Origin: Bryobacteraceae bacterium | GTDB lineage: Bacteria > Acidobacteriota > Terriglobia > Bryobacterales > Bryobacteraceae | Reading direction: 5' to 3' | NCBI GenBank assembly: GCA_019752335.1 | Contig: JAIEMJ010000041.1 | Location: 1-64,000, forward strand | Length of the DNA stretch: 64,000 nt | In this document: positions 3,680-25,397 of the stretch, one piece after another | How the letters are laid out: every line of letters starts with the position of its first letter | Numbering within the stretch: position 1 is the stretch's first letter | Made by a program: the position numbers and the translations under genes | The notes under the pieces: model-generated | Databases searched by the model: none | The model's input: the letters and a program-made list of their open reading frames with translations, nothing else | What the model was told of the DNA's origin: nothing

Positions 3680-4021
3680 TCACTTCTTGCTTTTCATGTT
3701 GTCAGTCTTGGGCATCACCATTACCTTATGAAGAACCATGTCGCCCTCGTACACGGTCGCCGTGATCTGGTCGCCGGCCTTCAGCTTCTTCGGGATCGCT
3801 GGATCATCGACTTTATAGTCCATGATCATGGCGTCCATCCAACCTTCTACCTTTTCGCCATTCACCTTCAGACTGTTGGCCGCCTCGTTCACGGTCTCTA
3901 CCTTGCCTTGGAACGTCAAAGCCTTCTTGGCAGGTACCGATTGTGCCAGACAGATCACCGCTGTGAGCAATGCTGCTGCGAATACTGTCATCAACCGATT
4001 CATTGCGAATATACGTTTCAT
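3680..4021 (-). CDS. CusF-like periplasmic copper-binding protein
   Basis: 113 residues with an N-terminal signal peptide (cleavage likely after CLAQ near residue 27) and a single small OB-fold domain. The segment EGWMDAMIMDY (W61, M62, M65, M67) matches the Trp/Met Cu(I) site of CusF (WPAMTM), and LKAGDQITATVYEGD is the conserved second half. CusF hands Cu(I)/Ag(I) to an RND exporter in the periplasm; the role here is inferred from that family. AAGGAG eight bases upstream supports ATG 4021. It stands alone, with no efflux gene beside it, but has a perfect ECF-type promoter at 4072-4097, so it is probably controlled by the sigma factor at 17297-17857. The usual T in AMTM is I here. Confidence 0.85.
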   Translation of the reverse strand: MKRIFAMNRLMTVFAAALLTAVICLAQSVPAKKALTFQGKVETVNEAANSLKVNGEKVEGWMDAMIMDYKVDDPAIPKKLKAGDQITATVYEGDMVLHKVMVMPKTDNMKSKK

Positions 4022-4071: not shown

Positions 4072-4097
4072 TTCGCGAGAGTGGCCGGATCGGTTAC
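4072..4097 (-). promoter_or_regulatory. ECF sigma (SigF-type) promoter of the CusF-like gene
   Basis: Read on the minus strand: GTAACC, 16 bases, CGAA, continuing ATTCACCAATAG. It is identical in the -35 and -10 elements and in the following 11 bases to the site at 18044-18069, and both are preceded by a CGGAA block. Predicted start of transcription is about 45 bases before the ATG at 4021. The sigma gene itself has the same motif. Confidence 0.8.
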
Positions 4098-4166: not shown

Positions 4167-4709
4167 CTATCTTTTTCGGTCGAGGACAAGGAGAGCTTCA
4201 GCGATACCGTTGACGGCGTGTTCCTCATTGCTCCGGCTTGCTTCGCTTCGGGGTAAAGAGGCGAGTTCCAAGTGAACCAATTCATGCACAACGGTCAATT
4301 CCATGTCGTCCAACATGGCTTGGAAGGGGACGCGATACTCGGAGGGATCAAGGACCGACATCGCAGCACTCTTCTTCCCCTTGTCCCAGCGGATTCCTCC
4401 AAGCGTCCGAGGCTTCAGATCAGCGCGCTTGGTCATCACTACAGAGATTTTCCAACCTTCCAGCTTCAACCGCCGCTGCCAGACGTCTATTTTGTTCTCG
4501 ACGAATTTGGTGCAATACTGGGTCCGCTCGACGGGACTCATGCAAGATGCAACCTGCGGGTCGCAGGGCTGTTTAGGAGCCTCAACGGTGACTGGTTCAC
4601 TCACGGCCACCTGGGCGTAAGCTGGAACCGCTATTCCGAGCAGCAGGAAAACGCCGGTCGCGCAGAGATGGCGGCCGACTATTTTCTCCACATGTTCACG
4701 GATAGCCAC
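4167..4709 (-). CDS. Secreted protein with HExxH (zincin-like) motif
   Basis: About 180 residues from the GTG at 4709, which gives a normal signal peptide ending AYAQ; further upstream codons would only add a basic, unlikely extension. The mature part has a Cys-rich N-terminus (CDPQVASCMSPVERTQYC) and, near the C-terminus, TVVHELVHLELASL followed by EEHAVNGIAEALL. HELVH plus a downstream Glu/His-containing helix is the usual zinc site of small metallopeptidases. I do not recognise a named family, so peptidase activity is inference. It is followed by the SigF-type promoter region of the CusF-like gene but has no such motif itself. Confidence 0.6.
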   Translation of the reverse strand: MAIREHVEKIVGRHLCATGVFLLLGIAVPAYAQVAVSEPVTVEAPKQPCDPQVASCMSPVERTQYCTKFVENKIDVWQRRLKLEGWKISVVMTKRADLKPRTLGGIRWDKGKKSAAMSVLDPSEYRVPFQAMLDDMELTVVHELVHLELASLPRSEASRSNEEHAVNGIAEALLVLDRKR

Positions 4710-4937: not shown

Positions 4938-5147
4938 ATGACAACGGGAATCCGAGCAACGTTCATTGTCCTCCTCGCGATCACACTCGTGGTGGGCTCA
5001 GTGGCGTGCCCCTTGTGGATGGGTTCGATGTCCAACGGGATGCCCTGTTCCCACTGCCCCACGGATCGGTGCCCATCGTCAATTTGCCAGACCAGTTCAC
5101 CCTACTTGGCCTCGCAAGCTGTGGACGTCCCCACTTTTGCTCTTTGA
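4938..5147 (+). CDS. Small Cys-rich exported or membrane protein
   Basis: 69 residues from ATG 4938: one hydrophobic helix (FIVLLAITLVVGSVA) then CPLWM, PCSHCPTDRCPSSIC and a short polar tail. The CxxC-rich, Met-containing segment just outside the membrane suggests a metal-binding role, as in other small Cys-rich proteins of this window (16164, 19254, 41307, 46737, 48160). No clear Shine-Dalgarno is visible, so the start is uncertain. No named family recognised. It precedes a WYKAK repeat protein gene. Confidence 0.5.
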   Translation: MTTGIRATFIVLLAITLVVGSVACPLWMGSMSNGMPCSHCPTDRCPSSICQTSSPYLASQAVDVPTFAL

Positions 5148-5378
5148 ATTGCCTGCGGAGCTAGTCGGGGTAGCTACTTATGATTTGTCGCACGTACCGC
5201 GTGAATCCATTTCATCTCGGACTCACTACTCCGCCTGGTCCGATCGATCCGCTCTATCTGCGGACACACTCTCTGCTGATCTAGATTCCTCTCTGCCGAC
5301 GCACGTGCTTGCGAATCGCTGCACGTATTTATTCTGGTCAGGCTATTGAGATGGAGATTCTGAACAAGGAGAAATGTC

Positions 5379-5795
5379 ATGAAAACGTTACTGAGAAGCG
5401 TGGTTTTAACCAGTTCTTTGGCGCTGGTTGCGAGTGGTTTGATGGCGCAATCGGGCATCAGTGAATTTGACCAACGGTACAAGGCCAAATACGGCATATA
5501 CTCGCCACAAACGGAAGCCCGCCTGAGGGCTGAACGCGCAAACAGCGCATCTCGCGAGGAAGCTAGTGTCCCGCCCGCGCGTCCAAACTGGATCGAGCAG
5601 TACTACAAGGCGAAGTATGGGCGCAACACACCCGCAGAAGAGGCTCGCTTAAAAGCTGAGCGGGATAGCAGCGCCTCCCGTGAGGAGCCGACTCAGATAG
5701 AACCAGCGAAAAGCTGGATCGACCAGTGGTACAAAGCGAAGTTCGGCCGCTACTCGCCTCCCGAAGAAGCGCGTTTGAAAGCGGCGGGTAAATGA
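5379..5795 (+). CDS. Exported WYKAK triple-repeat protein
   Basis: 138 residues: signal peptide (cleavage near MAQ, residue 24), then three repeats with a 42-residue period. Each contains (W/F)-x-x-Q-x-YKAK-(Y/F)-G, then a Thr/Ser-Pro step, EARL(R/K)AER and NSASREE; the YKAK motifs start at residues 34, 76 and 118. The last repeat ends early at EEARLKAAGK. Repeats are joined by PPARP- or EPAK-type linkers. AAGGAG upstream supports the ATG. A closely similar paralogue is at 18152-18571, next to an ECF sigma gene, and a relic at 9437-9497. I know no named family. Highly charged, helix-prone repeats suggest an extracytoplasmic binding or scaffold protein; the metal link is contextual only. No SigF-type promoter is visible here. 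Confidence 0.8.
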   Translation: MKTLLRSVVLTSSLALVASGLMAQSGISEFDQRYKAKYGIYSPQTEARLRAERANSASREEASVPPARPNWIEQYYKAKYGRNTPAEEARLKAERDSSASREEPTQIEPAKSWIDQWYKAKFGRYSPPEEARLKAAGK

Positions 5796-6783: not shown

Positions 6784-8283
6784 ATGGCGGTTGGCACTAA
6801 AGAACGGCTCACTCTTCCAAAGACCGTTTACGTCTGTCCGATGCATCCAGAAGTCCAACAGGATCGACCCGGTTCCTGTCCTAAATGTGGCATGAAGCTC
6901 CAGCAGCGCGATGAAGAAAAGCCGCAAGCGATCCGTCGGACGGAAGATCACATCCAGATGATCGGTCATATGCGGGCTCCGTGGCTCTGGACAAACTTCA
7001 CAGTCATGGTGCTGGGGCTGTGGCTGGTGAGCAGCCCGTTTACCTTCGGCTACTCAACTGGCGCGATGATGAGGAGCGATGTCATAAGCGGTGCTTTGCT
7101 TGTGCTTTTTGCCGGCCTCGGCCTTTTTCCACGATGGGATTTTATCGGCCGTTGGAGCGTCGCACTTGTGGGAACTTGGTTACAGTTTGCACCCCTTCTG
7201 TTTTGGGCCGCCTCCCCTGCGGCAATGGTGAATGACACGCTGATCGGGGCTTTGGCAATTGCGCTGTCATTTCTGATCCCGATGATGCCCGGCAAGGCGC
7301 ATCACATGGAGGCGATGAAGCCGGGGCCAGAGATTCCGCCGGGTTGGACCTACAATCCTTCGAGCTGGCACCAGAGGGCTCCGATGATCGCTCTCGCTAC
7401 TTTTGGCTGGTTCATTTCCCGGTATTTGGCGGCTTACCAGTTTCACTACATCTCTGAGGTCTGGGACCCTTTCTTTGGAGACAGCACCGCGAAAGTGCTG
7501 ACCTCAAAAGTCTCGCAAATGTGGCCGATCTCGGATGCCGGCCTTGGCGCTGCGGCATACACTATTGAAATGCTCATGGGCTGGATGGGCGGGGTGACCC
7601 GCTGGAGGACAATGCCGTGGATGGTCACGTTCTTTTTTATCCTCGTTGTTCCTCTTGGCCTCACACATATCGCACTGGTAATCCTTCAGCCCGTGGTTGT
7701 GGGTCACTGGTGCACCCTGTGTCTCGCGGCAGCCTCGGTGATGCTGGTGATGATCCCCCTGGCCGTCGACGAGGTCTTTGCGATGGCACAGTTCTTAAAG
7801 CGGTGCGTCCATCAAGGCAAACCCTTTTGGCGCACGTTTTGGGTCGGCGGAACGCTGGAGGGCGAAGAGAACAAGGACGAGCGGACGCCGCGCTATGGCG
7901 CTCCCGCCTCAAAAATGTGGGCGCCGATGGTATGGGGTGTAAGCGTACCGTGGACCCTGGCGGCGAGCGCTCTTCTCGGCATCTGGTTAATGTTCGCGCC
8001 GTACGTCTTTGGAACACAAGCGGCCGCGGCTGATAGCGACCATGTCGTGGGCGCCGTAGTTGTAACGGTTTCCGTGGTCGTGATGGCTGAGGTAATCCGT
8101 GCCGGCCGGTTTCTCAATGTATTGTTTGGATTGTGGATTGCCGCAACACCATGGATCTTAAGTGGGTCCAGCGCGGGTGGCAGGTGGAACGGCGTCCTGG
8201 CGGGGCTCGTAATTGCGGCGCTGGCGTTGCCGCGCGGCCCCATTCGAGAGCGATATGCGACGTGGGACTCCATGATTTTCTGA
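6784..8283 (+). CDS. Metal-binding domain + SPW repeats + VKOR-family membrane protein
   Basis: 499 residues. Domain order: a soluble heavy-metal-binding zinc-ribbon-like domain (CPMHPEV at 18-24, then CPKCGM at 32-37); an SPW-repeat helix pair (APWLWTNF..WLVSSPFTFGY); a vitamin K epoxide reductase-like four-helix unit with active-site C310-T-L-C313; and a second SPW region (VPWTLAASALLGIWLMFAP, then WIAATPWIL). VKOR homologues feed disulfides to periplasmic proteins via quinone. The loop cysteine pair that normally shuttles electrons is not seen; the segment between the first VKOR helices has Ser and Trp instead. GGAGG lies 7 bases before the ATG. A paralogue at 61407-62918 has the same architecture. 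Fusion of metal-binding and redox domains suggests a link between metal stress and thiol redox, but this is inference. Confidence 0.85.
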   Translation: MAVGTKERLTLPKTVYVCPMHPEVQQDRPGSCPKCGMKLQQRDEEKPQAIRRTEDHIQMIGHMRAPWLWTNFTVMVLGLWLVSSPFTFGYSTGAMMRSDVISGALLVLFAGLGLFPRWDFIGRWSVALVGTWLQFAPLLFWAASPAAMVNDTLIGALAIALSFLIPMMPGKAHHMEAMKPGPEIPPGWTYNPSSWHQRAPMIALATFGWFISRYLAAYQFHYISEVWDPFFGDSTAKVLTSKVSQMWPISDAGLGAAAYTIEMLMGWMGGVTRWRTMPWMVTFFFILVVPLGLTHIALVILQPVVVGHWCTLCLAAASVMLVMIPLAVDEVFAMAQFLKRCVHQGKPFWRTFWVGGTLEGEENKDERTPRYGAPASKMWAPMVWGVSVPWTLAASALLGIWLMFAPYVFGTQAAAADSDHVVGAVVVTVSVVVMAEVIRAGRFLNVLFGLWIAATPWILSGSSAGGRWNGVLAGLVIAALALPRGPIRERYATWDSMIF

Positions 8284-9617: not shown

Positions 9618-10560
9618 TCAAAACATGACACCCACTTCCAACAACAAGCGAGTCTGGGTCTTAGCCCTGCCGTCCGGGCCGAAGGCCATGCCTGGAGTCG
9701 TTCGTGTTGCCTGAACGAATGAAAATTCAGGGCGGGCGAAGAAGATGCCGCGTTGATAAGTGGGCGTCACCGTTACGGACCACGCCCGGCTCCCCGGCCC
9801 GTACAGCAAATTAGGGGCGCCGTTAGCAACGGTGCCCGTTGAGGCTAGATACTCCACACGAAATGGCAAGCTGACGCCGTCTAACTTCAAGCCGCCGGCT
9901 TTGGAACCTTGGGCGAAACTGTAATTCGCGAGCAAAGCACCACCGGTGGTAGAGGCCTCGTGGAGCGCACCGATTTCAGGGATGCGCGGGACGCGGGTAT
10001 ATTGGAAATACGGTTGGATGGTCCAGGGTCCGGAAGTGTGCGTGAAGATCACGTTGTAGAGTTGTTCGTTGTTCTGGTAAAGCGGGGTTGCCTGGGTTGC
10101 AATGTTGGTATGCCGTGTATTGCCGGAGCCAATGAAGGCGAAGGTATTTTTGTCGTTGAGCGTCCAGGTCGCCGAGAGCCAAGCCCAGCTATATTTGTTC
10201 GAATAGAATCCTTCGTTCAACGACGCTGAGAATGCGACACGTCCCGCGGTGTAGTTTACTTGCACACCGCGATTCACTGCGTTTTCCTGATTCCAGAGTA
10301 GGCCACGTTGGATATTCATGTTTGCGTGGGAAAAAGTAGTCTCGGCTCCTATGAGCGTGGGCAGCTTGCCCCCGACGATTGAGAAATTGCGGGTAGGGGC
10401 TATCTTGAGGAATCCCTGGGGAAACGGACCGAAGAAGCCGTTGGTTGCAGTCTTTGCGCGAAGATACGGCAGGCCAAGAGCCGGAACTGAGTAGGCACCT
10501 ACCTGGACGAAATACTGCACCACACCGTCGGTCTTGTTGAAGAAAATTTGCGCGTTGCTC
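9618..10560 (-). pseudogene. Outer-membrane beta-barrel porin, C-terminal part (split by IS66)
   Basis: About 313 codons of a beta-barrel protein with alternating aromatic/polar strands (VQVNYTAGRVAFSASLNEGF, WSVTVTPTYQRGIFFARPEF) ending LLLEVGVMF, a typical outer-membrane C-terminal strand ending in Phe. The N-terminal part lies beyond the IS at 13336-13624. Joining the two and removing one copy of the 8-bp target duplication gives exactly 408 codons in frame (..DLSN-AQIFFNKTDG..), so the gene was intact before insertion. Resembles putative porins of the BBP2/OmpL-like type; substrate unknown. Confidence 0.85.
10553..10560. repeat. IS66 target-site duplication, copy 1
   Basis: CGTTGCTC directly abuts the IS end GTAAGCACCC at 10561; the same 8 bp follow the other IS end at 13336-13343. 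Eight-base duplications are typical of IS66 insertion. Confidence 0.9.
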
Positions 10561-11006
10561 GTAAGCACCCGATGAACACCCAAGTGGGTAGGGCTTAGGC
10601 GCGAGCCGCAGCCCAGTGGTGAGGGAGCAACTGATCGAGCTGATTGACGGGATGGCCAGGGATGCGCGCGAGGACGTCGTGGAACCAGGCGAAGGGATCG
10701 ACCTTGATCAGTTCGCACGAAGCAATGAAGCTGCGCAGGACCGCCGCCGTCCGTCCACCGCGATCGCTGCCGAAGAAGGTCCAGTTGGCGCGGCCCACCG
10801 CCCAGCCGCGAATCGATCGCTCCGTGCGGTTGTTGTCGATCGACAGGTCCGGATCATCGCAGTAACGCGTGAGCGCCGCCCAGTTCTTGAGTAAGTAATT
10901 TATCGCTCGACCGGCGTCACTCTTCGGCAGCAGCTGTTCATGAATCTCGCGCAGATAACTTTCAAGCTGCGTCAGAATCGGACGCGAAGCTTGCGTCCGC
11001 AGTAAC
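10561..11006. repeat. 446-bp tandem duplication of the IS66 end, copy 1
   Basis: By reading the two stretches side by side, 10561-11006 repeats 11007-11452: both start GTAAGCACCCGATGAACACC and end TTGCGTCCGCAGTAAC. It contains the last ~135 codons of tnpC and the terminal inverted repeat. Because the target duplication lies outside both copies, the extra copy belongs to the inserted element rather than to a second insertion. I saw no difference between the copies, but did not compare every base formally. Confidence 0.9.
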
Positions 11007-11452
11007 GTAAGCACCCGATGAACACCCAAGTGGGTAGGGCTTAGGCGCGAGCCGCAGCCCAGTGGTGAGGGAGCAACTGATCGAGCTGATTGACGGGATG
11101 GCCAGGGATGCGCGCGAGGACGTCGTGGAACCAGGCGAAGGGATCGACCTTGATCAGTTCGCACGAAGCAATGAAGCTGCGCAGGACCGCCGCCGTCCGT
11201 CCACCGCGATCGCTGCCGAAGAAGGTCCAGTTGGCGCGGCCCACCGCCCAGCCGCGAATCGATCGCTCCGTGCGGTTGTTGTCGATCGACAGGTCCGGAT
11301 CATCGCAGTAACGCGTGAGCGCCGCCCAGTTCTTGAGTAAGTAATTTATCGCTCGACCGGCGTCACTCTTCGGCAGCAGCTGTTCATGAATCTCGCGCAG
11401 ATAACTTTCAAGCTGCGTCAGAATCGGACGCGAAGCTTGCGTCCGCAGTAAC
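11007..11452. repeat. 446-bp tandem duplication of the IS66 end, copy 2
   Basis: This copy is continuous with the rest of tnpC. It begins with a complete internal terminal inverted repeat, so a transposase could in principle use either the end at 10561 or the one at 11007. Confidence 0.9.
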
Positions 11453-16163: not shown

Positions 16164-16520
16164 CTAAATCAGAAGGGGGAGATTATGGCTGGACGGTGAT
16201 GCCAGCATCGGAGGTGAATGCGCGCGGACTGAAACCATACCCCAGGAGTGGCCAGGAATGGAGTATCTGAATTCCGGAATCAGGCCCGCAAAGGCAGTCA
16301 GATGCTGATCCGCAGCCGCCTTTACGCCCAGTGCAGGAGACAGCGTGTTGTCTGCAACGGTGCCTTTACAGCAATCGTCGTTAGACAACGCAGACCCACA
16401 CTTGCCCTTGAGGCAGCACTCGGCGGCCTCTCGCGTCATGCCAGCGCCGAAACAATCGAGGGGTCGAAGAACCAGCACGATTGCCACAACGGCAGTCAAT
16501 ATGTGAACGGCACGACGCAC
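16164..16520 (-). CDS. Small exported Cys-rich protein
   Basis: About 118 residues from GTG 16520, giving a good signal peptide (AVHILTAVVAIVLVLRPLDCFGAG). The mature part has ECCLKGKC and DDCCKG, then a long polar region ending SPPMLASPSSHNLPLLI. Paired CC motifs suggest metal or disulfide chemistry. A 48-codon upstream extension exists but would hide the signal peptide. Located 145 bases downstream of nrsF in the same direction, so it may belong to the sigma operon. Part of a loose class of small Cys-rich proteins in this window. Confidence 0.55.
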   Translation of the reverse strand: MRRAVHILTAVVAIVLVLRPLDCFGAGMTREAAECCLKGKCGSALSNDDCCKGTVADNTLSPALGVKAAADQHLTAFAGLIPEFRYSIPGHSWGMVSVRAHSPPMLASPSSHNLPLLI

Positions 16521-16664
16521 AGTACGGCTATGGTAGCATGGATACTGCTCTAAAGCTAACATAAATAAGGACTTAAGTCGTGAACAGGCAAGTATAATGA
16601 ACATTCGTGTACAACAAACTATCTTGGACATAGGTGCTTCATGTACCTTTCGCTGCACAACCAA

Positions 16665-17300
16665 CTACCACCGCAGAAGTCGCGGCCCCAGCATCGCGCC
16701 GATCCATGCACAGAGCGCGATCATCATGCCGTACCAAAGGGCGACGAACGGCAGATAATCGTCGGGGCAGTGGAATGCGTAAGCGGCTGCTCCCAACGCC
16801 CCGGCAACAAGTCCCGCAACCGCTCCGGTGCGCCTCAAATTGGTGGGTGCGCCTCTGCGTAACGCCCAAATCAACGCTGCGAACGGAACGGTCGCGAACA
16901 GCGGTATGCAAACTACGCACATTCCCCACTGTCCCTCCATGATCATCGGATGCCAGGTGGCCGGGGGTGTACGAGCGAGCGCGACAGCACCAGCCAATCC
17001 AAGTGCCAGGAACGAACCGAAGATAACCGCGTAGAGCTTCCGCCCATCCTGTCCTGGATGAATCAATTTACCCAGCAAAGCTGCTCCTGAGCCGATCAAG
17101 ATCAGCGTGAACACGAGCTTTAGGGCCAGATATCCCAAGTTGAATGCGCTTTCGGTACGCAGGCCGACCGTGGCGAGCATCATACAAAAAGCAGCCACCC
17201 CACCGGCAGCAAGCGTCAAAGCCAGTGTCTTCTTGAGCTGTCCGCTCTTTGCTGGCTCTAGATTCGTACTGAGCATGTTGATGAGTTGATCAGTCTTCAT
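16665..17300 (-). CDS. nrsF: NrsF-family (DUF1109) anti-sigma factor
   Basis: 211 residues, the family's usual size, with six predicted membrane helices after a short cytoplasmic N-terminus (MKTDQLINMLSTNLEP). Conserved features include WHPMIMEGQWGMCVVCIP and AYAFHCPDDYLPFVALWY, with cysteines in or near the membrane. In Caulobacter, NrsF holds the ECF factor SigF at the membrane and conserved cysteines are needed for metal sensing (as I recall). The ATG overlaps the sigma stop in ATGA, so the pair is translationally coupled. It should release the sigma factor upon metal or redox stress. Confidence 0.9.
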   Translation of the reverse strand: MKTDQLINMLSTNLEPAKSGQLKKTLALTLAAGGVAAFCMMLATVGLRTESAFNLGYLALKLVFTLILIGSGAALLGKLIHPGQDGRKLYAVIFGSFLALGLAGAVALARTPPATWHPMIMEGQWGMCVVCIPLFATVPFAALIWALRRGAPTNLRRTGAVAGLVAGALGAAAYAFHCPDDYLPFVALWYGMMIALCAWIGAMLGPRLLRW

Positions 17301-17857
17301 GGTCGGCTCCCGCTTATTAAACGTGCCATCGCCTTCAAACCTCGATGGACGGATACCTTCACATTCGATTCGGACATTCCGCATTTCGCCGCCGCCTCGC
17401 TGACGCTTAGGCCATCCAGCTTCACGGCCTGGATAGCCTGTCTCGTCTTTAACGGCAATCCCGCCATCAGACTCTCCAAATCCAAGGTGCTCTCCACGCT
17501 GCCGTGGTCATCTTGGGATGTTGCCTCTTTGGCACCCTCGATCGGCAGATCGTTTCTTGACGCCTGCGCCCGACGCAAGTAGTCCACAAATTTATAGCGC
17601 GCAATGGCATAAACCCAGGGCGTGAAGAGCTGCGCTGGATCATATGTATGTCGGCGCGTGTGGATCGCAATCAGAGCTTCCTGTACCAGATCTTCCGCTT
17701 CCACTGGACCTCGGCCAATCCGGCTGAGTTGTCCTTTGAAGTACCCGCGCAATTGGATGCTCAACCTTTCTAGCAGCTCCCGGTGCGCTGCACCATCGCC
17801 GCCGAGGCCCGCAATCATCAAGGTATAGAGTTCGGGTTCAGTCGACGGCACACTCAT
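17297..17857 (-). CDS. sigF: ECF sigma factor, SigF type (NrsF-controlled)
   Basis: 186 residues from ATG 17857: region 2 (EDLVQEALIAIHTRRHTYDP..FTPWVYAIARYKFVDYLRR), a short linker and region 4 (GLPLKTRQAIQAVKLDGLSVSEAAAKCGMSESNVKVSVHRGLKAMA). Followed by the coupled nrsF gene. A promoter of the same class lies at 17861-17886, only 3 bases before the ATG, so transcription should start at or inside the first codons: either a leaderless message or a start at the internal ATG 17818. Autoregulation is therefore likely. Diverges from the WYKAK gene at 18152. Confidence 0.92.
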   Translation of the reverse strand: MSVPSTEPELYTLMIAGLGGDGAAHRELLERLSIQLRGYFKGQLSRIGRGPVEAEDLVQEALIAIHTRRHTYDPAQLFTPWVYAIARYKFVDYLRRAQASRNDLPIEGAKEATSQDDHGSVESTLDLESLMAGLPLKTRQAIQAVKLDGLSVSEAAAKCGMSESNVKVSVHRGLKAMARLISGSRP

Positions 17858-17860
17858 TAG

Positions 17861-17886
17861 TTCGCAGAGCCTCGCGTTTCGGTTAC
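17861..17886 (-). promoter_or_regulatory. ECF sigma (SigF-type) autoregulatory promoter
   Basis: On the minus strand: GTAACC, 16 bases, CGAA, then CTAATGAG. It has the same hexamer, spacing and -10 as the sites at 4072-4097 and 18044-18069. The closeness to ATG 17857 leaves no room for a leader, which argues for leaderless translation or a downstream start. Confidence 0.75.
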
Positions 17887-18043
17887 AACGGGGCGAATAC
17901 ATTTCCCCGCGTCGTTCCATGGTACGTGGCGATGGCACGACAAGGTGGGCATCCTCTCGTTAACTTTCGGTTCGAATCCTGTTAACTTCACCCTTGCATG
18001 GTGCCGGAAGCGTCGGCCAAGCCGGTCCCCGCGTCCGGAAACT

Positions 18044-18069
18044 GTAACCGATTCTGCTCCTCTTGCGAA
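18044..18069 (+). promoter_or_regulatory. ECF sigma (SigF-type) promoter of the WYKAK gene
   Basis: GTAACC (18044-18049), 16 bases, CGAA (18066-18069), followed by TTCACCAATAG. Except for part of the spacer it equals the CusF-gene promoter at 4072-4097, including the upstream CGGAA. The leader to ATG 18152 would be about 75 bases. Confidence 0.8.
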
Positions 18070-18151: not shown

Positions 18152-18571
18152 ATGAAAACGTTTTTGAAGAGCATTCTGTTCACCGGCGCATTGGCGATGA
18201 GCACCCACGGCCTGATGGCTGCGCAAACAAACGATGGCTGGCTCGACCAGTGGTACAAGGCCAAGTTCGGTCGCTTTTCGCCGCCAACAGAAGCCCGCCT
18301 GAGGGCTGAGCGCGAAAACAGCGCATCTCGCGAAGAGGCCAGCCGCCCGCCCGCACGTCAAAATTGGATCGAGCAGCACTACAAAGCGAAGTTCGGCCGC
18401 AACACACCGGCAGAAGAGGCTCGATTGAAGGCTGAGCGGGATAACAGTGCCTTCCGCGAAGAGCCCGTTCAGACAGAGCCGGCCAAAAGCTGGATTGACC
18501 AGTGGTACAAAGCGAAGTACGGTCGCTACTCGCCACCGGAGGAGGCTCGCCTCAAAGCATTAGGCAAATGA
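18152..18571 (+). CDS. Exported WYKAK triple-repeat protein, probable SigF target
   Basis: 139 residues, same layout as the protein at 5379: signal peptide ending near LMAAQ, then three ~42-residue repeats with WYKAKFG, HYKAKFG and WYKAKYG, each followed by EARL(R/K)A and an E-rich segment (NSASREE, NSAFREE). The end is EEARLKALGK. AAAGGAG before the ATG. The N-terminal repeat is cleaner here (WLDQWYKAKFGRFSPP), so this may be the ancestral version. Divergent from sigF and preceded by a perfect SigF-type promoter; thus most likely an envelope protein induced together with sigF. Biochemical function unknown. Confidence 0.85.
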   Translation: MKTFLKSILFTGALAMSTHGLMAAQTNDGWLDQWYKAKFGRFSPPTEARLRAERENSASREEASRPPARQNWIEQHYKAKFGRNTPAEEARLKAERDNSAFREEPVQTEPAKSWIDQWYKAKYGRYSPPEEARLKALGK

Positions 18572-19648: not shown

Positions 19649-20944
19649 ATGGCAAGAAGCCGGGTTATACCCGCTTCGATACTTGCCTTGTTGTTGGCCG
19701 CCCCCGCCCAACCGCAAGCATCGAAGCCCATATTCACAATTGATGAGCTAGTCACCTTATCGCTAGAGCGAAACCGCGACCTACTTGCCGCAAGGCAGCG
19801 ATTGAGTGAGGCGGAAGGACTGTTGCGGCAGGCCGGCGTTAGACTCGCCCCAACCCTGGAGGCCGAGGGTACAACCGGCCGACCAGTGGGCACCAAAGGG
19901 GAAGAGGCTTACAGCGCCGCGTTGTTCTATCCGATCGAAACTGGCGGCAAGCGTCAGAAGAGAGTCCACGTTGCGGAATTCGGAATGGCGCTGGCGCAGG
20001 CTGAGGTTTCCGAACGAGCGAGACAGCTTACGTTTGAGGTGAAGCGGCGGGCCATCGAAGTGCTCGCGGCTCGTCGAAAACAGGATGCTATCGAGCGTAT
20101 CCTGGGCGTGAGCCGCGAGTCGTACCAAATCACCAAAGTTCGGGTAGAAGAAGGGGACGCTGCGCCGCTAGAACAGCAGTTGCTCGCCACTGAACTGGCG
20201 CGAGTCGAGGTGCAACAGGTCAGCTTTGGCGGCCGTGCTACGTCGAGTCTTTTCGAATTGCGACAAGCCCTGGGCGTAGCTGAAGCCGATCTGGCCAACG
20301 TGCTGGACGAGAGCACAGTGACGCCCACAGCGGTCGCAGTGGCCGATCTGAAGGCGCGCTCTTTGTCTAGCCGGCCGGATCTGGAAGCATCTCGCGTCCT
20401 AGAAGAACAGGCGTCTGCGGAGGCGGAACTCACGCGTGCCCAAGGGCGTCCTGACCTCACGGTATCAGCTCGATACACACGACGGAATTCCTTCTTCGAT
20501 GATTACTTCGTGTTGTCTCCATCCGGCAGCGCAATTCAGCTACGCGATCCAGATAACGTTCTAACATTCGGAATATCGATCCCGCTGTTTACGCAACGCC
20601 GTAATCAAGGAGCTATTGAAGCAGCTGTGTCGCGGGAGCGCGCTGTTCGTCTACGCCGCGAGTACCTCCAAATGACAGTTCCGCTCGAAGTTGACGCAGC
20701 ATACAACCGCTGGACCGCCGCCCAGCGTGCAATTTCGTTGTTCCAGAGGGGCGTGATCGAACAGTCGGAAAAAAACCTCGCCGTGGTTCGCGAAGCGTAC
20801 GCTCTCGGGCAGCTTCGAGTCCAGGATGTTCTGGCAGAACAGCGGCGGCTCCTCGACACGCAACTGGCCTACATAGATGCACAGACTGAAGTTGCTCAAG
20901 CAACCGCTGAACTTGAACGAGCGATAGGAGGAAAGCTTCAATGA
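19649..20944 (+). CDS. czcC: CzcC-like outer-membrane factor (TolC family)
   Basis: 431 residues: signal peptide to about residue 24, then two tandem outer-membrane-efflux repeats with long helices (VTLSLERNRDLLAARQRLSEAEGLL; AYALGQLRVQDVLAEQRRLLD). The barrel strands include LTVSARYTRRNSF. It should form the outer-membrane exit duct for the RND pump encoded downstream. GTAGGAGAAC precedes the ATG. The stop overlaps czcB by 4 bases. Confidence 0.9.
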   Translation: MARSRVIPASILALLLAAPAQPQASKPIFTIDELVTLSLERNRDLLAARQRLSEAEGLLRQAGVRLAPTLEAEGTTGRPVGTKGEEAYSAALFYPIETGGKRQKRVHVAEFGMALAQAEVSERARQLTFEVKRRAIEVLAARRKQDAIERILGVSRESYQITKVRVEEGDAAPLEQQLLATELARVEVQQVSFGGRATSSLFELRQALGVAEADLANVLDESTVTPTAVAVADLKARSLSSRPDLEASRVLEEQASAEAELTRAQGRPDLTVSARYTRRNSFFDDYFVLSPSGSAIQLRDPDNVLTFGISIPLFTQRRNQGAIEAAVSRERAVRLRREYLQMTVPLEVDAAYNRWTAAQRAISLFQRGVIEQSEKNLAVVREAYALGQLRVQDVLAEQRRLLDTQLAYIDAQTEVAQATAELERAIGGKLQ

Positions 20945-22179
20945 GAACCCTGACTTTAGTGCTTGTAGTGACATTGGTTTCACTTCTGACCGGTTGTGGA
21001 GAGAGCCGATCCAAGGAGGGGAAACCGAGCGTGTCCCCGTCGGAAGGCTCCAGCGAAAAGAAAGCGCAGGCATCGGAAGCGAGTGAAGAGGCGAAGGAAC
21101 CTAGTGGTCTGATCGAGCTTAGCGAGGCGGCACAGCGCCGTATCGGATTGACCTTGGCTCGCGCGACAACCGCCCCGCTTGCCGAGGTGCTTATGTTAAA
21201 CGGGACAGTGCAACCACTGGAGGGCCGGATCACAAGTGTGCGGCCATTGACGCGGGGGCGCCTGAAAGAGGTTCTCGTCAGGGTGGGTGACCGAGTCAAT
21301 TCCGGCCAGCTTCTCGCGCGATTAGACAACATCGAGGCAGGGGATTTGAGTTCACAATACAACACAGCGCGGGCCGACTTAGCACGCCTTCGGATTCAAC
21401 AAGCGGTCACCGCTCGACAAGCGGAACGAAGCCGGAAGTTGGTTGCGATTGGCGCCGTGCCACAAAAAGAGCTGGAGGCGATTGAGGGAGAAAGGCAAGG
21501 GCAGGAAGAGGCGATCCGGGCACAGGAGAGCACCATTGCAGGCCTGCTGGCGCGACTCCAGCGATTTGGGGTTGGAGACCCAACTTCAGGGACGTCAACA
21601 ACTACCATTGAGGCCCCGTTCGCTGGTGTCGTGACTGCCGTACCAGCCGCTCAGGGTGCGGTCGTAGAAACCACGTCGGAACTGCTATCAATCGTCGACC
21701 TCTCGCAGGTCTACGTTGCTGGGCAAGTGTACGAAAGAGATCTGAGCAAGATTCGAATCGGTCAAAACGTTGCTGTTGTAGCAGCGGGCTATCCAGACGT
21801 GCGTTTTCCAGGGCGGGTGGCATCCCTCAGCCCCTCGCTCAATCCAGAGACTCGAACCGCTTCCGTGCGGGTTGAGGTCGCAAACACCGCCGAACGCCTT
21901 CGTATCGATATGTTCGCCACCGTCGAACTGCCAATGGCGGCGAATAGTGAAGCGTTGACAGTACGGACTGATGCAATCCAGCGCGTGGAAGGCAAGTCCG
22001 TTGTTTTCGTCCGCGCTGACGCTACTCATTTCAGCGCACGGCCGGTACAAGTTGGACGTATCGCTTCCAATTTGATCGAGATAACCAGTGGTCTGAAGGC
22101 CGGAGAACTCGTTGTCACAAATGGTTCTTTCAATCTCAAGTCGGCGCTACTAGGTAAAGAACTGTCGGAGAAGGAGTAG
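20941..22179 (+). CDS. czcB: CzcB-like periplasmic adaptor (lipoprotein)
   Basis: 412 residues. Lipoprotein signal with lipobox LTGC (Cys19), then a charged linker, the first half of a lipoyl/barrel-sandwich domain (GTVQPLEGRITSVRPLTRGRL), a coiled-coil hairpin (~140-200), the second lipoyl half (IEAPFAGVVTAVPAAQGAVV) and beta-barrel and membrane-proximal domains. Links CzcA to CzcC. No extra His-rich N-terminal metal site is seen. ATGA overlap with czcC. Confidence 0.92.
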   Translation: MRTLTLVLVVTLVSLLTGCGESRSKEGKPSVSPSEGSSEKKAQASEASEEAKEPSGLIELSEAAQRRIGLTLARATTAPLAEVLMLNGTVQPLEGRITSVRPLTRGRLKEVLVRVGDRVNSGQLLARLDNIEAGDLSSQYNTARADLARLRIQQAVTARQAERSRKLVAIGAVPQKELEAIEGERQGQEEAIRAQESTIAGLLARLQRFGVGDPTSGTSTTTIEAPFAGVVTAVPAAQGAVVETTSELLSIVDLSQVYVAGQVYERDLSKIRIGQNVAVVAAGYPDVRFPGRVASLSPSLNPETRTASVRVEVANTAERLRIDMFATVELPMAANSEALTVRTDAIQRVEGKSVVFVRADATHFSARPVQVGRIASNLIEITSGLKAGELVVTNGSFNLKSALLGKELSEKE

Positions 22180-22184
22180 CTCGC

Positions 22185-25100
22185 ATGATAAATCGAATCA
22201 TTGAGATCAGCATCCGCTGGCGCGTCTTTGTCATCGTCATGGCCGCCGGCTTGGTCGGCATTGGCGTGTGGGCCGTGCTCGACCTTCCCATAGACGCGGT
22301 ACCAGATGTAACCACGAACCAGGTTCAGGTGAATACCGTTTTTCCGTCATTCACGCCAGCCGAGATGGAGCAGTACGTGACGTTCCCGATTGAGGTCGCC
22401 CTCAGTAGCTTGCCACGCAAGCAGGAAATTCGCTCGATTTCTCAGTTCGGCCTCTCGCAAGTCACGGTCACGTTCCCCGACGAGATGGACATCTACCAGG
22501 CAAGGCAACTCGTACTCGAACGCCTCATCGAGGTCGGTCGTACGCTGCCTCCCGGTGTCACACCAGAACTGTCTCCCATCAGCACTGGCCTAGGCGAGGT
22601 CGTGCAATTTACTCTGCGCGACGTTAGTGGGCAGAAACGACACTCCCTGACGGATCTTCGTACAGAGCTCGACTGGTTCATAAAGCCGCAGCTACGCACT
22701 GTTCCCGGGGTCATAGAAGTGAATAGTTTCGGCGGGCAGGAGCGCCAATTTGAAGTGCTTGTCGATCCGGCGAAACTAGTGGCACAGGGGCTCACGCTTC
22801 GGCAGGTGATTGACGCTCTGGGGCAGAACAACGCCAATGTGGGAGGTGGTTACCTGGAGCATTCGGGCGAACAGCAACTTATCCGCGGTGTCGCCCTGAT
22901 TAAGAACGTTACCGATATTGAAAATGTTGTCGTTGCAGCGCGCCAAGGGACGCCCATCTACATTCGAACAGTTGCCGAGGTGCGCATCGGCGCACAAATT
23001 AGGCAAGGAGCAGCGACACGGAATGGCGAAGGTGAAACTGTGGTTGGCGTCGCCATGCTGCTCAAAGGCGAGAATAGCCGCACCGTCGCAGAGCGCGTTG
23101 TGGAACGGCTGGGACAGCTCCAAAAAGCGCTCCCGACGGGCATGCAGGTCGATGTTTTCTACAATCGCCGTACCCTCGTCGACCAAACCATACAAACCGC
23201 AGTGAGAAATCTTATCGAAGGTGGGTTGGTTGTCATTGCTGTTCTGTTCCTGTTCTTATTGCAGTTCCGCGCCGGCCTAATAGTGTCTTCCGCAATTCCC
23301 TTGGCCATGCTGGTTGCGATCATCGGCATGCGCTACTTCGGCATCTCCGCGAACCTCATGAGTCTGGGAGCAATCGATTTCGGGCTCGTTGTCGATGCCG
23401 CCGTTATCATCGTCGAAAACTGTGTGCGGCGCCTCGCGGAGGAACGGCGGCGCCTTGGCCGCATGCTCACGGGCGAAGAGAGACGCCGGGTTATCTACAC
23501 CAGCAGCGTGGAAGTCCGGCGGGCAAGTCAGTTTGGCGAAATCCTGATTATCGCCGCGTACTTGCCCATTGTGTCGCTGGTCGGTATTGAGGGAAAGATG
23601 TTCAGGCCGATGGCGTTCACCGTAATCCTCGCGCTCGCCGGCGCTCTGGTCCTTAGCTTAACCGTGATTCCGGCGCTGGCGGCGATGTTGCTGCGAGAAC
23701 CGCGAAAAGTACACGAACAGGAACATAGCGATATCGCTGGTGGGTCGGGGGTTGCGGATGAAAACCCGATTGTTCGATGGCTCCAGCGGCTTTATCGCCC
23801 ATTGCTTGAGTTGACCACATCGTGGCCAAAGCTCACGGCTCTCTCAGCTTTGCTTTTTGTTACTGCGTGCGCTGCGATGTTCCAGCTGTTGGGCGCCGAA
23901 TTCTTGCCAAAACTCGAGGAAGGCGCACTCGCGATTAACAGCATTCGCCTGCCGAGCGTGTCGTTGCCTCAGGCAGTCGAAATGACCACCCAATTGGAAC
24001 GCATTGTCCGTAGTTTCCCTGAGGTAGAGACCGTGGTGAGCCGGATCGGCAGGCCCGAGATCGCAACGGACCCGATGGGACCGAACATGGGCGACACGTA
24101 TGTCTTCTTGAAACCGAAGGAGCAATGGCAGACAGCGCACTCTCGGGAGGAACTCGTCGAAGCCCTTGAGCACCGTATCAAAGACGAACTACCAGGAATG
24201 GGTTACTCGTTTTCGCAGCCCATTGAGTTTCGGATGCAGGAGCTTATTGAGGGGACCGGAGCTCGCTCCGACGTGGTAGTGAAAATATTCGGCGAAGATT
24301 TGAACACCCTTCGCGAAAACGCGGAGGGGGTCGCTCGAGCACTAGGTCAGGTGCGAGGCGCATCCGACATAAAGGTCCAGCAGGTCACGGGCTTGCCGAT
24401 GCTCCAAATCACGGTGAATCGCGACGCCATCGCCCGCTATGGAATCAACGCTAGCGAAGTCCAGGAACTCATACGAACCGCTATTGCGGGCACAGAAGCG
24501 ACCACGGTACTGGAAGGCTTTCGGCGGTTTACTCTGGTCGTCCGCCTTTCGCCTGAAGCGCGCAGAAGGCCGGAGCAGTTTGCAGGTCTGCTGGTCAGCG
24601 CGCCGAACGGCCAAAAGATTCCACTGGCGCAACTAGCGGACATAGAATCGGTCGAAGGCCCATTCGAAGTAGGCCGCGAAGAGGGTCAGCGCCGCATCAC
24701 GATAGAGGTCAACATACGCGGCCGCGACGTCGGCAGCTTCGTTACCGAGGCGCAGCGTCGCGTGGACGAACAGGTAAAACTTCCATCTGGCTACCTGATG
24801 CAGTGGGGCGGTCTCTGGGAACACCTTGAGAGCGGTCGTGACCGGCTTTTGATCGTTGTTCCCATCACATTTGTGCTGATTTTCCTATTATTGATCGCGA
24901 CCTTCGGTTCGGCCGCGCAGGCGGCATTGGTGTTCACGGGAATTCCTTTCGCCGTAACAGGCGGAATTCTTGCGCTGCTGCTTCGGGGCATGCCGTTTTC
25001 TATGAGCGCTGGCGTCGGATTCATTGCGGTATCGGGTGTTGCCGTTTTGAACGGGCTTGTAATGGTTGCGTTCATCAATGAAGCGCGTCAACGAAATGAG

Positions 25101-25397
25101 CCCATGCATCAAGCTGTGCTCGACGGAGCGCTCGTTCGCCTCCGACCTGTTTTGATGACTGCTGCGGTCGCAAGTTTCGGTTTCTTGCCGATGGCCTTGT
25201 CTACTGGCGGCGGGGCCGAAGTGCAGCGGCCATTAGCAACGGTCGTAATCGGCGGCCTCGTGACGTCTACGATTCTCACACTTCTAGTGCTGCCAGCCCT
25301 GTATCCGTGGTTTAGCGGGAGAGTAGCAACTAAGGAGCAGGAAATCTTAGCGGCACCAAAACATCGGGATCCAGCGCCAGAGGAGGCACCGCTGTGA
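22185..25397 (+). CDS. czcA: CzcA-like heavy-metal RND efflux pump
   Basis: 1070 residues, full length for heavy-metal-exporting RND pumps: 12 membrane helices, two large periplasmic loops, and in helix 4 the charged relay DFGLVVDAAVIIVEN that marks divalent-cation (Zn/Co/Cd) rather than Cu/Ag pumps. Other family blocks: FPSFTPAEMEQYVTFPIE, TGLGEVVQFTLRD, GQKIPLAQLADIES, RPVLMTAAVASFGFLPMALS. Exports metal from periplasm/cytoplasm across the outer membrane with CzcB and CzcC. Five bases after czcB. Confidence 0.95.
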   Translation: MINRIIEISIRWRVFVIVMAAGLVGIGVWAVLDLPIDAVPDVTTNQVQVNTVFPSFTPAEMEQYVTFPIEVALSSLPRKQEIRSISQFGLSQVTVTFPDEMDIYQARQLVLERLIEVGRTLPPGVTPELSPISTGLGEVVQFTLRDVSGQKRHSLTDLRTELDWFIKPQLRTVPGVIEVNSFGGQERQFEVLVDPAKLVAQGLTLRQVIDALGQNNANVGGGYLEHSGEQQLIRGVALIKNVTDIENVVVAARQGTPIYIRTVAEVRIGAQIRQGAATRNGEGETVVGVAMLLKGENSRTVAERVVERLGQLQKALPTGMQVDVFYNRRTLVDQTIQTAVRNLIEGGLVVIAVLFLFLLQFRAGLIVSSAIPLAMLVAIIGMRYFGISANLMSLGAIDFGLVVDAAVIIVENCVRRLAEERRRLGRMLTGEERRRVIYTSSVEVRRASQFGEILIIAAYLPIVSLVGIEGKMFRPMAFTVILALAGALVLSLTVIPALAAMLLREPRKVHEQEHSDIAGGSGVADENPIVRWLQRLYRPLLELTTSWPKLTALSALLFVTACAAMFQLLGAEFLPKLEEGALAINSIRLPSVSLPQAVEMTTQLERIVRSFPEVETVVSRIGRPEIATDPMGPNMGDTYVFLKPKEQWQTAHSREELVEALEHRIKDELPGMGYSFSQPIEFRMQELIEGTGARSDVVVKIFGEDLNTLRENAEGVARALGQVRGASDIKVQQVTGLPMLQITVNRDAIARYGINASEVQELIRTAIAGTEATTVLEGFRRFTLVVRLSPEARRRPEQFAGLLVSAPNGQKIPLAQLADIESVEGPFEVGREEGQRRITIEVNIRGRDVGSFVTEAQRRVDEQVKLPSGYLMQWGGLWEHLESGRDRLLIVVPITFVLIFLLLIATFGSAAQAALVFTGIPFAVTGGILALLLRGMPFSMSAGVGFIAVSGVAVLNGLVMVAFINEARQRNEPMHQAVLDGALVRLRPVLMTAAVASFGFLPMALSTGGGAEVQRPLATVVIGGLVTSTILTLLVLPALYPWFSGRVATKEQEILAAPKHRDPAPEEAPL

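Follow-up and report, generated by a model that had tools for sequence, protein, structure and literature searches.

Two repeat proteins and their surroundings

The window analysed here is a stretch of 64,000 nucleotides from a Bryobacteraceae bacterium (GenBank assembly GCA_019752335.1, contig JAIEMJ010000041.1, positions 1 to 64,000 of the forward strand). It holds two intact genes on the plus strand for small repeat proteins, here called WYKAK. Copy 1 (5379-5795) and copy 2 (18152-18571) translate as the original prediction had claimed, into 138 and 139 amino acids, and are 76% identical to each other. The N-terminus (MKTFLKS-ILFTGALAM...LMAA) resembles a cleavable signal peptide by eye and in a hydropathy scan, and both copies are thus predicted to be exported. 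A genome search found these two as the only convincing members in the host genome.

The repeats of copy 2 lie at about 18236-18337, 18359-18463, and 18485-18568 (profile coordinates), and the repeat consensus is W-x-x-Q-W-Y-K-x-K-F/Y-G-R, a turn, and S/T-P-x-E-E-A-R-L-K-A-E. The K-x-K-x-G motif stands at residues 36, 78, and 120 in one protein and 35, 77, and 119 in the other, a spacing of exactly 42 residues in both. The best self-alignments, with scores of 210 and 188, came at an offset of 42; in 500 shuffles of each protein, the maxima were 40 and 38. This bears out the period claimed earlier. Three repeats are present in both copies, as had been stated, with the qualification that repeat 1 of copy 1 is worn (EFDQRYKAKYGIYSP, Trp absent). 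Among 27 chosen repeats, the core K and G are invariant and the P and E are conserved in at least 90%; the acidic second helix of the repeat is as conserved as the basic core. Beyond residue 25, Cys, His, and Met are absent from copy 1, and the only such residue in copy 2 is one His. The window copies contain 17-18 Asp/Glu and 22-23 Lys/Arg residues.

Between the two genes, dN is 0.149 and dS is 1.25 (near saturation), and the ratio of about 0.12 points to purifying selection on the protein. DNA similarity between them extends mainly from the ribosome-binding site to the stop codon, so the pair is taken to be an old gene duplication rather than a copied block. Outside the WYKAK genes, the only other shared DNA is a 45-bp stretch upstream of copy 2 and of cusF, which contains a sigma-F-type promoter. 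ORFs that by eye look like an IS66-type transposon lie between the copies, and a perfect tandem duplication of 446 bp (10560-11452) is located at the end of one such transposase-like gene.

The neighbours named in the original prediction, namely a sigma factor and NrsF at copy 2 and, at copy 1, a Cys-rich ORF together with an HMBD/VKOR/SPW protein, were all recovered. The minus strand encodes a CusF-like copper-binding periplasmic protein (3680-4021; PF11604, 2.1e-11) and a likely exported HExxH protein (4167-4682; no Pfam match over the cut-off), which is divergent from copy 1. A small, likely exported Cys-rich ORF (4938-5147, plus strand; CPLWMG..PCS.C..CP.SIC) precedes copy 1, and a membrane protein with HMBD, VKOR, and SPW domains (6784-8283, plus strand; Pfam) lies downstream. 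The small Cys-rich gene is present as described, in a form that is frameshifted or truncated relative to its counterpart at locus L056, where the same arrangement with WYKAK occurs. In the window, the CPLWMG gene spans 4938-5300; the L056 version (9633-10097) is open to a C-terminus LRTHSLLI. Comparable Cys-rich genes ending in LLI or FLI precede Cys-rich WYKAK relatives at L062 and L065, and we see in such genes a likeness to upstream ORFs that sense copper, like CopL or CruR.

Copy 2 is flanked on one side by sigF and nrsF, described below, and directly after nrsF by a likely exported Cys-rich protein (16164-16664, minus strand; CCLKGKC..DDCC, C-terminus ...LLI; no Pfam match). On its other side lies a CzcCBA-type efflux operon (19649-25397, plus strand) with an OEP (19649-20944), an adaptor (20941-22179), and an RND pump (22185-25397). 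The assignment is based on Pfam OEP and ACR_tran, and for the adaptor solely on the ORF list. The pump carries the motif DFGLVVD, which is presumably heavy-metal-RND-like.

Search for a described family and predicted structure

Curated cut-offs were not exceeded by WYKAK in Pfam (best 18.7 bits against a cut-off of 29.8) or in NCBIfam (best 15.1 bits against 33). Copy 2 had no match among PDB sequences, and the repeat profile gave chance-level matches only. PADLOC yielded no match at E 0.1, and PHROGs yielded a single chance-level match (E 0.049). The Spy, CpxP, and ZraP families were absent from the Pfam matches up to E 10, and no cell-wall-binding domain in Pfam was matched. Full-text literature searches with repeat core peptide strings returned occurrences in subjects that are unrelated by title. 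Two candidates were discarded: the LsbB bacteriocin (15.1 bits across 9 residues against a cut-off of 33) and DUF2255 (under the cut-off, covering a single stretch). The earlier statement that no known family could be named therefore holds, and no hit to a well-characterised domain, which would have counted against it, appeared in these five libraries. Within Pfam, NCBIfam, PDB, PADLOC, and PHROGs, WYKAK is an apparently undescribed exported family.

An AlphaFold2 model built from four sequences has helices at residues 29-39/44-63, 72-81/86-101, and 114-123/128-137. Its mean pLDDT is 66 and its pTM is 0.25, with three short segments below 50; in ten-residue blocks, pLDDT reaches about 77-81 in the repeat cores and 46-69 elsewhere. 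Because confidence rises in the repeat cores only and pTM is low, the model, which is moderately confident at best, suggests three separate helical hairpins on loose linkers, with no fixed mutual arrangement. A Foldseek search of the PDB with this weak model gave a best E of 3.1.

Relatives and their distribution

All counts from genome searches are lower bounds. A protein query found matches in at least 6 of 150 genomes of the family Bryobacteraceae. For the order Bryobacterales, a repeat profile at E 0.01 matched at least 15 of 257 genomes and a broader profile at least 14; the 13 genomes found by both are taken as carriers. Eight of 396 genomes matched in a sample of the phylum, only the host genome and G642 being convincing, and nine of 399 matched in a sample of the class, which adds G880 from the same genus as G642. 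Two carriers, G642 and G880, were thus found in the class outside the order. The family is rare, and no relatives were found among plasmids and viral contigs. One motif within a 266-aa ORF of G616 (L070), with no other similarity noted, was set aside, as were weak matches in G198, G078, G545, G494, G297, G507, G508, G250, and G737 (E 9e-4 to 9e-3).

The loci were sorted by eye into a Cys-free and a Cys-rich group. Cys-free proteins with three repeats are the two window copies and those of G148, G092 (cut by a contig end), G209, G217, G642, and G880; the G036 member is Cys-free with two repeats. The six Cys-free relatives that were counted each have no Cys, 0-2 His, and 0-4 Met. The Cys-rich group comprises G193 (two loci, one with a single motif), G179, G106, G201, and G023, whose proteins have 4 to 8 Cys beyond residue 25 of the mechanical ORF and bear CC and CEHACC clusters. 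A distant variant (G223) and a degenerate-looking member (G216, L061) are counted among the 13 carriers and lie outside the group counts. With a profile of the Cys-free repeats alone, the six Cys-rich loci were recovered, five at E 4e-7 to 8e-6 and one at 4e-4, and an hhalign comparison supports this for L063. The groups are therefore evidently related; what they share is the motif [aromatic]-[K/R]-x-K-[aromatic]-G-R-x-[S/T]-P-x-x-E.

With repeats shorter than 21 residues and the G880 protein left out, mean identity between repeats is 0.69 within a protein (16 pairs) and 0.59 between proteins (174 pairs, any rank). This likeness within proteins is a sign of repeat turnover inside each lineage. 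Repeats 2 and 3 of the window copies are an exception, as they pair with their counterparts.

Control by sigma-F and NrsF

In Caulobacter crescentus, the sigma-F-binding sequence is GTAACC-N16-CGAA (PMC3511200). Exact sites of this type lie in the window at 18044-18069 (plus strand), 82 bp before the ATG of copy 2, which is itself preceded by AAGGAG; at 17861-17886 (minus strand), before sigF; and at 4072-4097 (minus strand), 50 bp before the CusF gene. Three exact sites (spacer 15-17) compare with 0.23 expected in the window, and none of 100 shuffles reached three. The copy-2 and cusF sites also have the following bases, TTCACCAATAG, in common. A pattern scan of the window found no such site upstream of copy 1. 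The SigF-type promoter originally proposed for copy 2 can thus be identified as an exact site that recurs before sigF and cusF, and control of this copy by sigma-F appears well supported by sequence.

Single sites mean little, because the whole genome has 24 matches against 15 for a reversed-pattern control. Nineteen of the 21 sites outside this contig fall within predicted ORFs of at least 120 aa; of the remaining two, one precedes an ORF by 4 bp and the other has no ORF close by. This crude test also places the three window sites within mechanical ORFs, including the sigF and copy-2 frames, which are over-extended, so the standing of these sites depends on how the gene starts are read.

The sigF gene (17297-17857, minus strand) encodes an ECF sigma factor (Pfam Sigma70_r2/r4_2). 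Its likely start, MSVPST, was taken from the promoter position and sits inside a mechanical ORF of 17297-17938. If translation begins there, the -10 element ends 3 bases before the ATG and the sigF mRNA would be nearly leaderless. The adjacent, slightly overlapping ORF (16665-17300, minus strand) encodes the anti-sigma factor NrsF (PF06532, 186 bits, 1.2e-54; likely start MKTDQL by eye).

NrsF occurs in at least 85 of 257 genomes of Bryobacterales (82 over the cut-off), and the window protein, at 186 bits, stands far from the next best at 68.5. On plasmids, 153 records contain relatives of the window NrsF, the best about 45% identical and mostly alphaproteobacterial by name. The gene contexts of eight of the best 12 listed were examined. 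Metal-related genes are annotated nearby in seven of the eight (none were seen in L214), including multicopper oxidase, DUF411, copper-binding proteins, RND efflux, P-type ATPase, and ars or mer genes. An exact sigma-F site begins 41-47 bp before the annotated sigF start in six records; in the remaining two, it precedes the gene annotated next after nrsF, by 67 and 174 bp. Extra sites lie elsewhere in L220 (four), L216 (two), and L219 (one). Given these plasmid relatives, their metal genes, and the outlying NrsF score, the sigF/nrsF pair, which is similar to pairs on metal-resistance plasmids of proteobacteria, was probably acquired as a metal-resistance module.

In the Sphingomonas plasmid pTSSC1 (L213), a sigF/nrsF pair and a Cys-rich gene are followed by a likely exported protein (7452-7829) with two repeats of the type HYEWRAxPxYGPRxPLRxPVR. 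This protein has no Pfam match over the cut-off, and the nine plasmid records that match it, its own included, are all from sphingomonad genera. It was dropped as a WYKAK homologue, since no meaningful alignment was obtained, and is viewed as a parallel case, in which an aromatic/basic repeat protein accompanies the same control module. A sigma-like gene at L057 (G092) was likewise dropped, with no Pfam match at E 0.001.

The link between WYKAK and this module is confined to the host genome among the genomes examined. NrsF was found in 4 of 13 carriers in the order, compared with 85 of 257 genomes overall (both lower bounds), and in the three NrsF-bearing carriers other than the host it lies on a different contig from WYKAK. 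A random distribution relative to metal and sigF/nrsF loci had been named in advance as evidence against the original prediction. It was observed in part: the NrsF counts show no enrichment, and Cys-free members lie near metal genes at two of seven loci outside the window.

Genes near the relatives

A divergent, likely exported HExxH protein (VHELVHLELxSLPR) adjoins WYKAK at four Bryobacterales loci, namely window copy 1, G148, G209 (in two frames), and G217; the three outside the window are loci L056, L058, and L059. The three best matches of its profile are G000, G148, and G217, as expected because the profile was built from them. The HExxH family occurs in at least 45 of 257 genomes of the order. 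Only four of these carry WYKAK, adjoining each time, which corresponds to 4 of 13 WYKAK carriers, so neither protein needs the other and an obligate partnership was rejected. The window HExxH protein may be a protease, judged from its motif; an AlphaFold model of the protein alone reached a pLDDT of 46 and was left unused. With its conserved VHELVHL, a downstream EE, and no Pfam match over the cut-off, the family is a candidate for a metallopeptidase family not described so far. Downstream of WYKAK and on its strand, both G880 and G642 encode a predicted helical protein and a protease of the HtrA type (Trypsin_2 and PDZ by Pfam, run for G880). The two stretches are 67% identical at the DNA level, and this conserved block is joined, no more than about 9 kb from WYKAK, by a metal P-type ATPase in G880 and by an OEP/RND pump in G642. 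A lysyl oxidase after WYKAK in L056 (PF01186, 3.6e-15) was dropped as a partner; PF01186 was found in 2 of 23 genomes tested, 14 of which have WYKAK, adjoining it in G148 and on another contig in G201.

Metal markers were scored by motif in member loci of 3.9 to 19.5 kb and in 20 control stretches drawn from four genomes. They were present at three of six Cys-rich loci, one of seven Cys-free loci outside the window, and none of the 20 controls. The markers at the Cys-rich loci are multicopper oxidase genes (3/6 vs 0/20, Fisher p 0.008), and Pfam confirmed two of the oxidases. As the motif test misses CusA-type pumps, the G642 pump (L069) was added by hand afterwards, which brings the Cys-free loci to two of seven. 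A phmmer search also matched four controls, through RND pumps in L156 (motif not heavy-metal-like) and L158 (untyped) and through weak matches to an adaptor (L165) and an oxidase (L169); with L158 counted, the controls become 1 of 20. Hence, the metal link appears fair for the Cys-rich branch and for this genome; across the Cys-free branch as a whole, it is weak.

Two further recurrent neighbourhoods were noted by eye. Cys-rich relatives at L063 (9345-14186) and L067 (5216-9749) lie beside a common block of a predicted beta-barrel-like protein and a MacB-like ABC permease and ATPase; three of the L063 proteins tested had no Pfam match. Similar small helical, likely exported proteins (TPAEH/TPADH ... 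HCxY) occur in the metal-gene neighbourhoods of L069 (14243-14632) and L062 (5707-6141), and the L069 protein had no Pfam match.

Possible roles of WYKAK

The role that we favour, tentatively, is that of a periplasmic envelope protector, a chaperone or protease adaptor like Spy or CpxP, recruited into a metal-stress regulon. WYKAK is predicted to be exported to the periplasm and to form three independent helical hairpins on flexible linkers. The acquired sigma-F/NrsF pair would sense metal stress, upon which NrsF would free sigma-F, and sigma-F would transcribe sigF, cusF, and copy 2 from their matching promoter sites. WYKAK itself most likely does not hold metal; its aromatic and basic hairpins may bind damaged or misfolded envelope components and either keep these clients soluble or pass them to a periplasmic protease. 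The idea stems from the consideration that a stress-induced exported protein that does not bind metal could guard the envelope, and a client-binding or adaptor role would suit the neighbouring genes, for an HtrA-type protease in one lineage and for an HExxH protein in another. Several observations speak against it: the sigma-F link is seen in this genome only, the genome-wide count of sites is not much higher than that of the reversed pattern, the moderately confident model has no PDB fold match better than E 3.1, WYKAK and the HExxH family also occur apart, and the Cys-rich sister group near multicopper oxidases points rather to metal handling.

Two close rivals of this protector role have to be weighed. 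The repeats may instead bind a polyanion or the cell wall, their basic/aromatic hairpins coating a negatively charged surface such as peptidoglycan, exopolysaccharide, or outer-membrane lipid, with stress merely raising the dose. The invariant core K and G, the nearly invariant P and E, and the excess of Lys/Arg over Asp/Glu would suit such a binder, and greater likeness of repeats within than between proteins is found in multivalent binders. We regard this as rather unlikely, given an acidic second helix as conserved as the basic core and no match to a wall-binding domain.

An unlikely but serious alternative is a periplasmic metal buffer. The family would have begun as a metal (copper) binder, and the window proteins would still bind through carboxylates, Tyr, or cation-pi contacts, much as SilE, CusF, and bufferins buffer metal. 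The Cys-rich relatives with their CC and CEHACC clusters and nearby multicopper oxidases argue for it, as does the position of the window copies next to CusF, the HMBD protein, and CzcCBA. Soft-metal holding by the window copies is improbable, because Cys, His, and Met are near-absent after residue 25. The six Cys-free relatives counted are similarly poor in these residues, and basic residues outnumber acidic ones in the window copies. Metal binding by the two window proteins, which had been raised originally, is thus not supported.

WYKAK could also be an accidental member of the regulon, a lineage-specific exported protein of unrelated role that landed behind an acquired sigma-F promoter together with a mobile metal-resistance island. 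The confinement of the sigF link to one genome, the unremarkable frequency of NrsF among carriers, and the IS66-type-looking ORFs between the copies are in keeping with this. It is quite unlikely in view of selection on both copies and of the outside relatives G642 and G880, which lie close to efflux-pump or metal-ATPase genes. Highly improbable is a secreted multi-copy peptide or RiPP precursor, from which the HExxH protein or some other enzyme would release the repeats as short peptides or modify them. The three basic/aromatic segments are alike and alternate with acidic, Pro-containing spacers, which would fit, as would a divergent HExxH gene at four loci. Against this, the spacer helices are conserved too, no modifying enzyme was seen to recur (there is no MNIO in the genome, and lysyl oxidase adjoins in one genome only), and the single HExxH match of the genome adjoins copy 1 and not copy 2.

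Comparison with known systems

Periplasmic metal binders of the SilE/CusF type are small, exported, encoded in or near metal clusters, and equipped with Met/His ligands. WYKAK is similar in its size, likely export, and location, but such ligands are near-absent in the window copies. Spy, CpxP, and ZraP are small helical exported stress proteins that counter aggregation independently of ATP, and the Spy-type chaperone fold is a cradle dimer. WYKAK is like them only in its predicted helices and presumed export; there is no sequence match, and hairpins arranged as beads on a string are predicted in place of the cradle dimer. Spy is a chaperone of outer-membrane proteins (PMC8546600).

The Caulobacter sigma-F/NrsF heavy-metal regulon, marked by sigF-dependent induction with chromate or cadmium, shares with the present one an NrsF of the same Pfam family, the same promoter site, and a small size, and its described targets include the operons CC2907-2905 and CC3254-3257 (PMC3511200). 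The targets seen here are sigF, cusF, and WYKAK. Both Caulobacter operons are presumably of the bufferin type. Bufferins (Buf1/DUF2282) are small signal-peptide proteins, some of whose clusters include sigma factor and NrsF genes, and they chelate copper via Cys-derived thiooxazoles (PMC12452194). WYKAK resembles them in its size, its predicted signal peptide, and, for copy 2, an NrsF context. In contrast, its window copies have no Cys and no MNIO partner. MNIO (PF05114) had no match in the host genome (97% complete), although a Caulobacter control was detected, so there is no sign of a bufferin pathway here.

Implications

The original observation of a repeat family with a likely signal peptide and a 42-residue period was confirmed by translation, self-alignment, and selection. 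Of its interpretation, the undescribed exported family, within the five libraries, and the SigF control of copy 2 are supported, and metal binding by the two window proteins is not. The repeat family appears real and undescribed, and one copy is, on sequence grounds, convincingly wired to a mobile metal alarm. Its repeat unit of about 30 residues occurs in Cys-free and Cys-rich proteins alike.

Taken as a whole, a fuller picture remains doubtful: a Cys-free hairpin-repeat periplasmic family may serve as the effector of an acquired sigma-F/NrsF alarm and guard the envelope rather than the metal, with client protection here where Caulobacter uses copper-chelating bufferins, and the Cys-rich branch may separately have turned into a copper protein. 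If this is true, the sigma-F/NrsF metal response would be a mobile control module that can be connected to unrelated exported effectors, one of which comes from a family that has no described member in these five libraries. WYKAK would then provide a testable example of protection against metal stress that does not depend on metal ligands.
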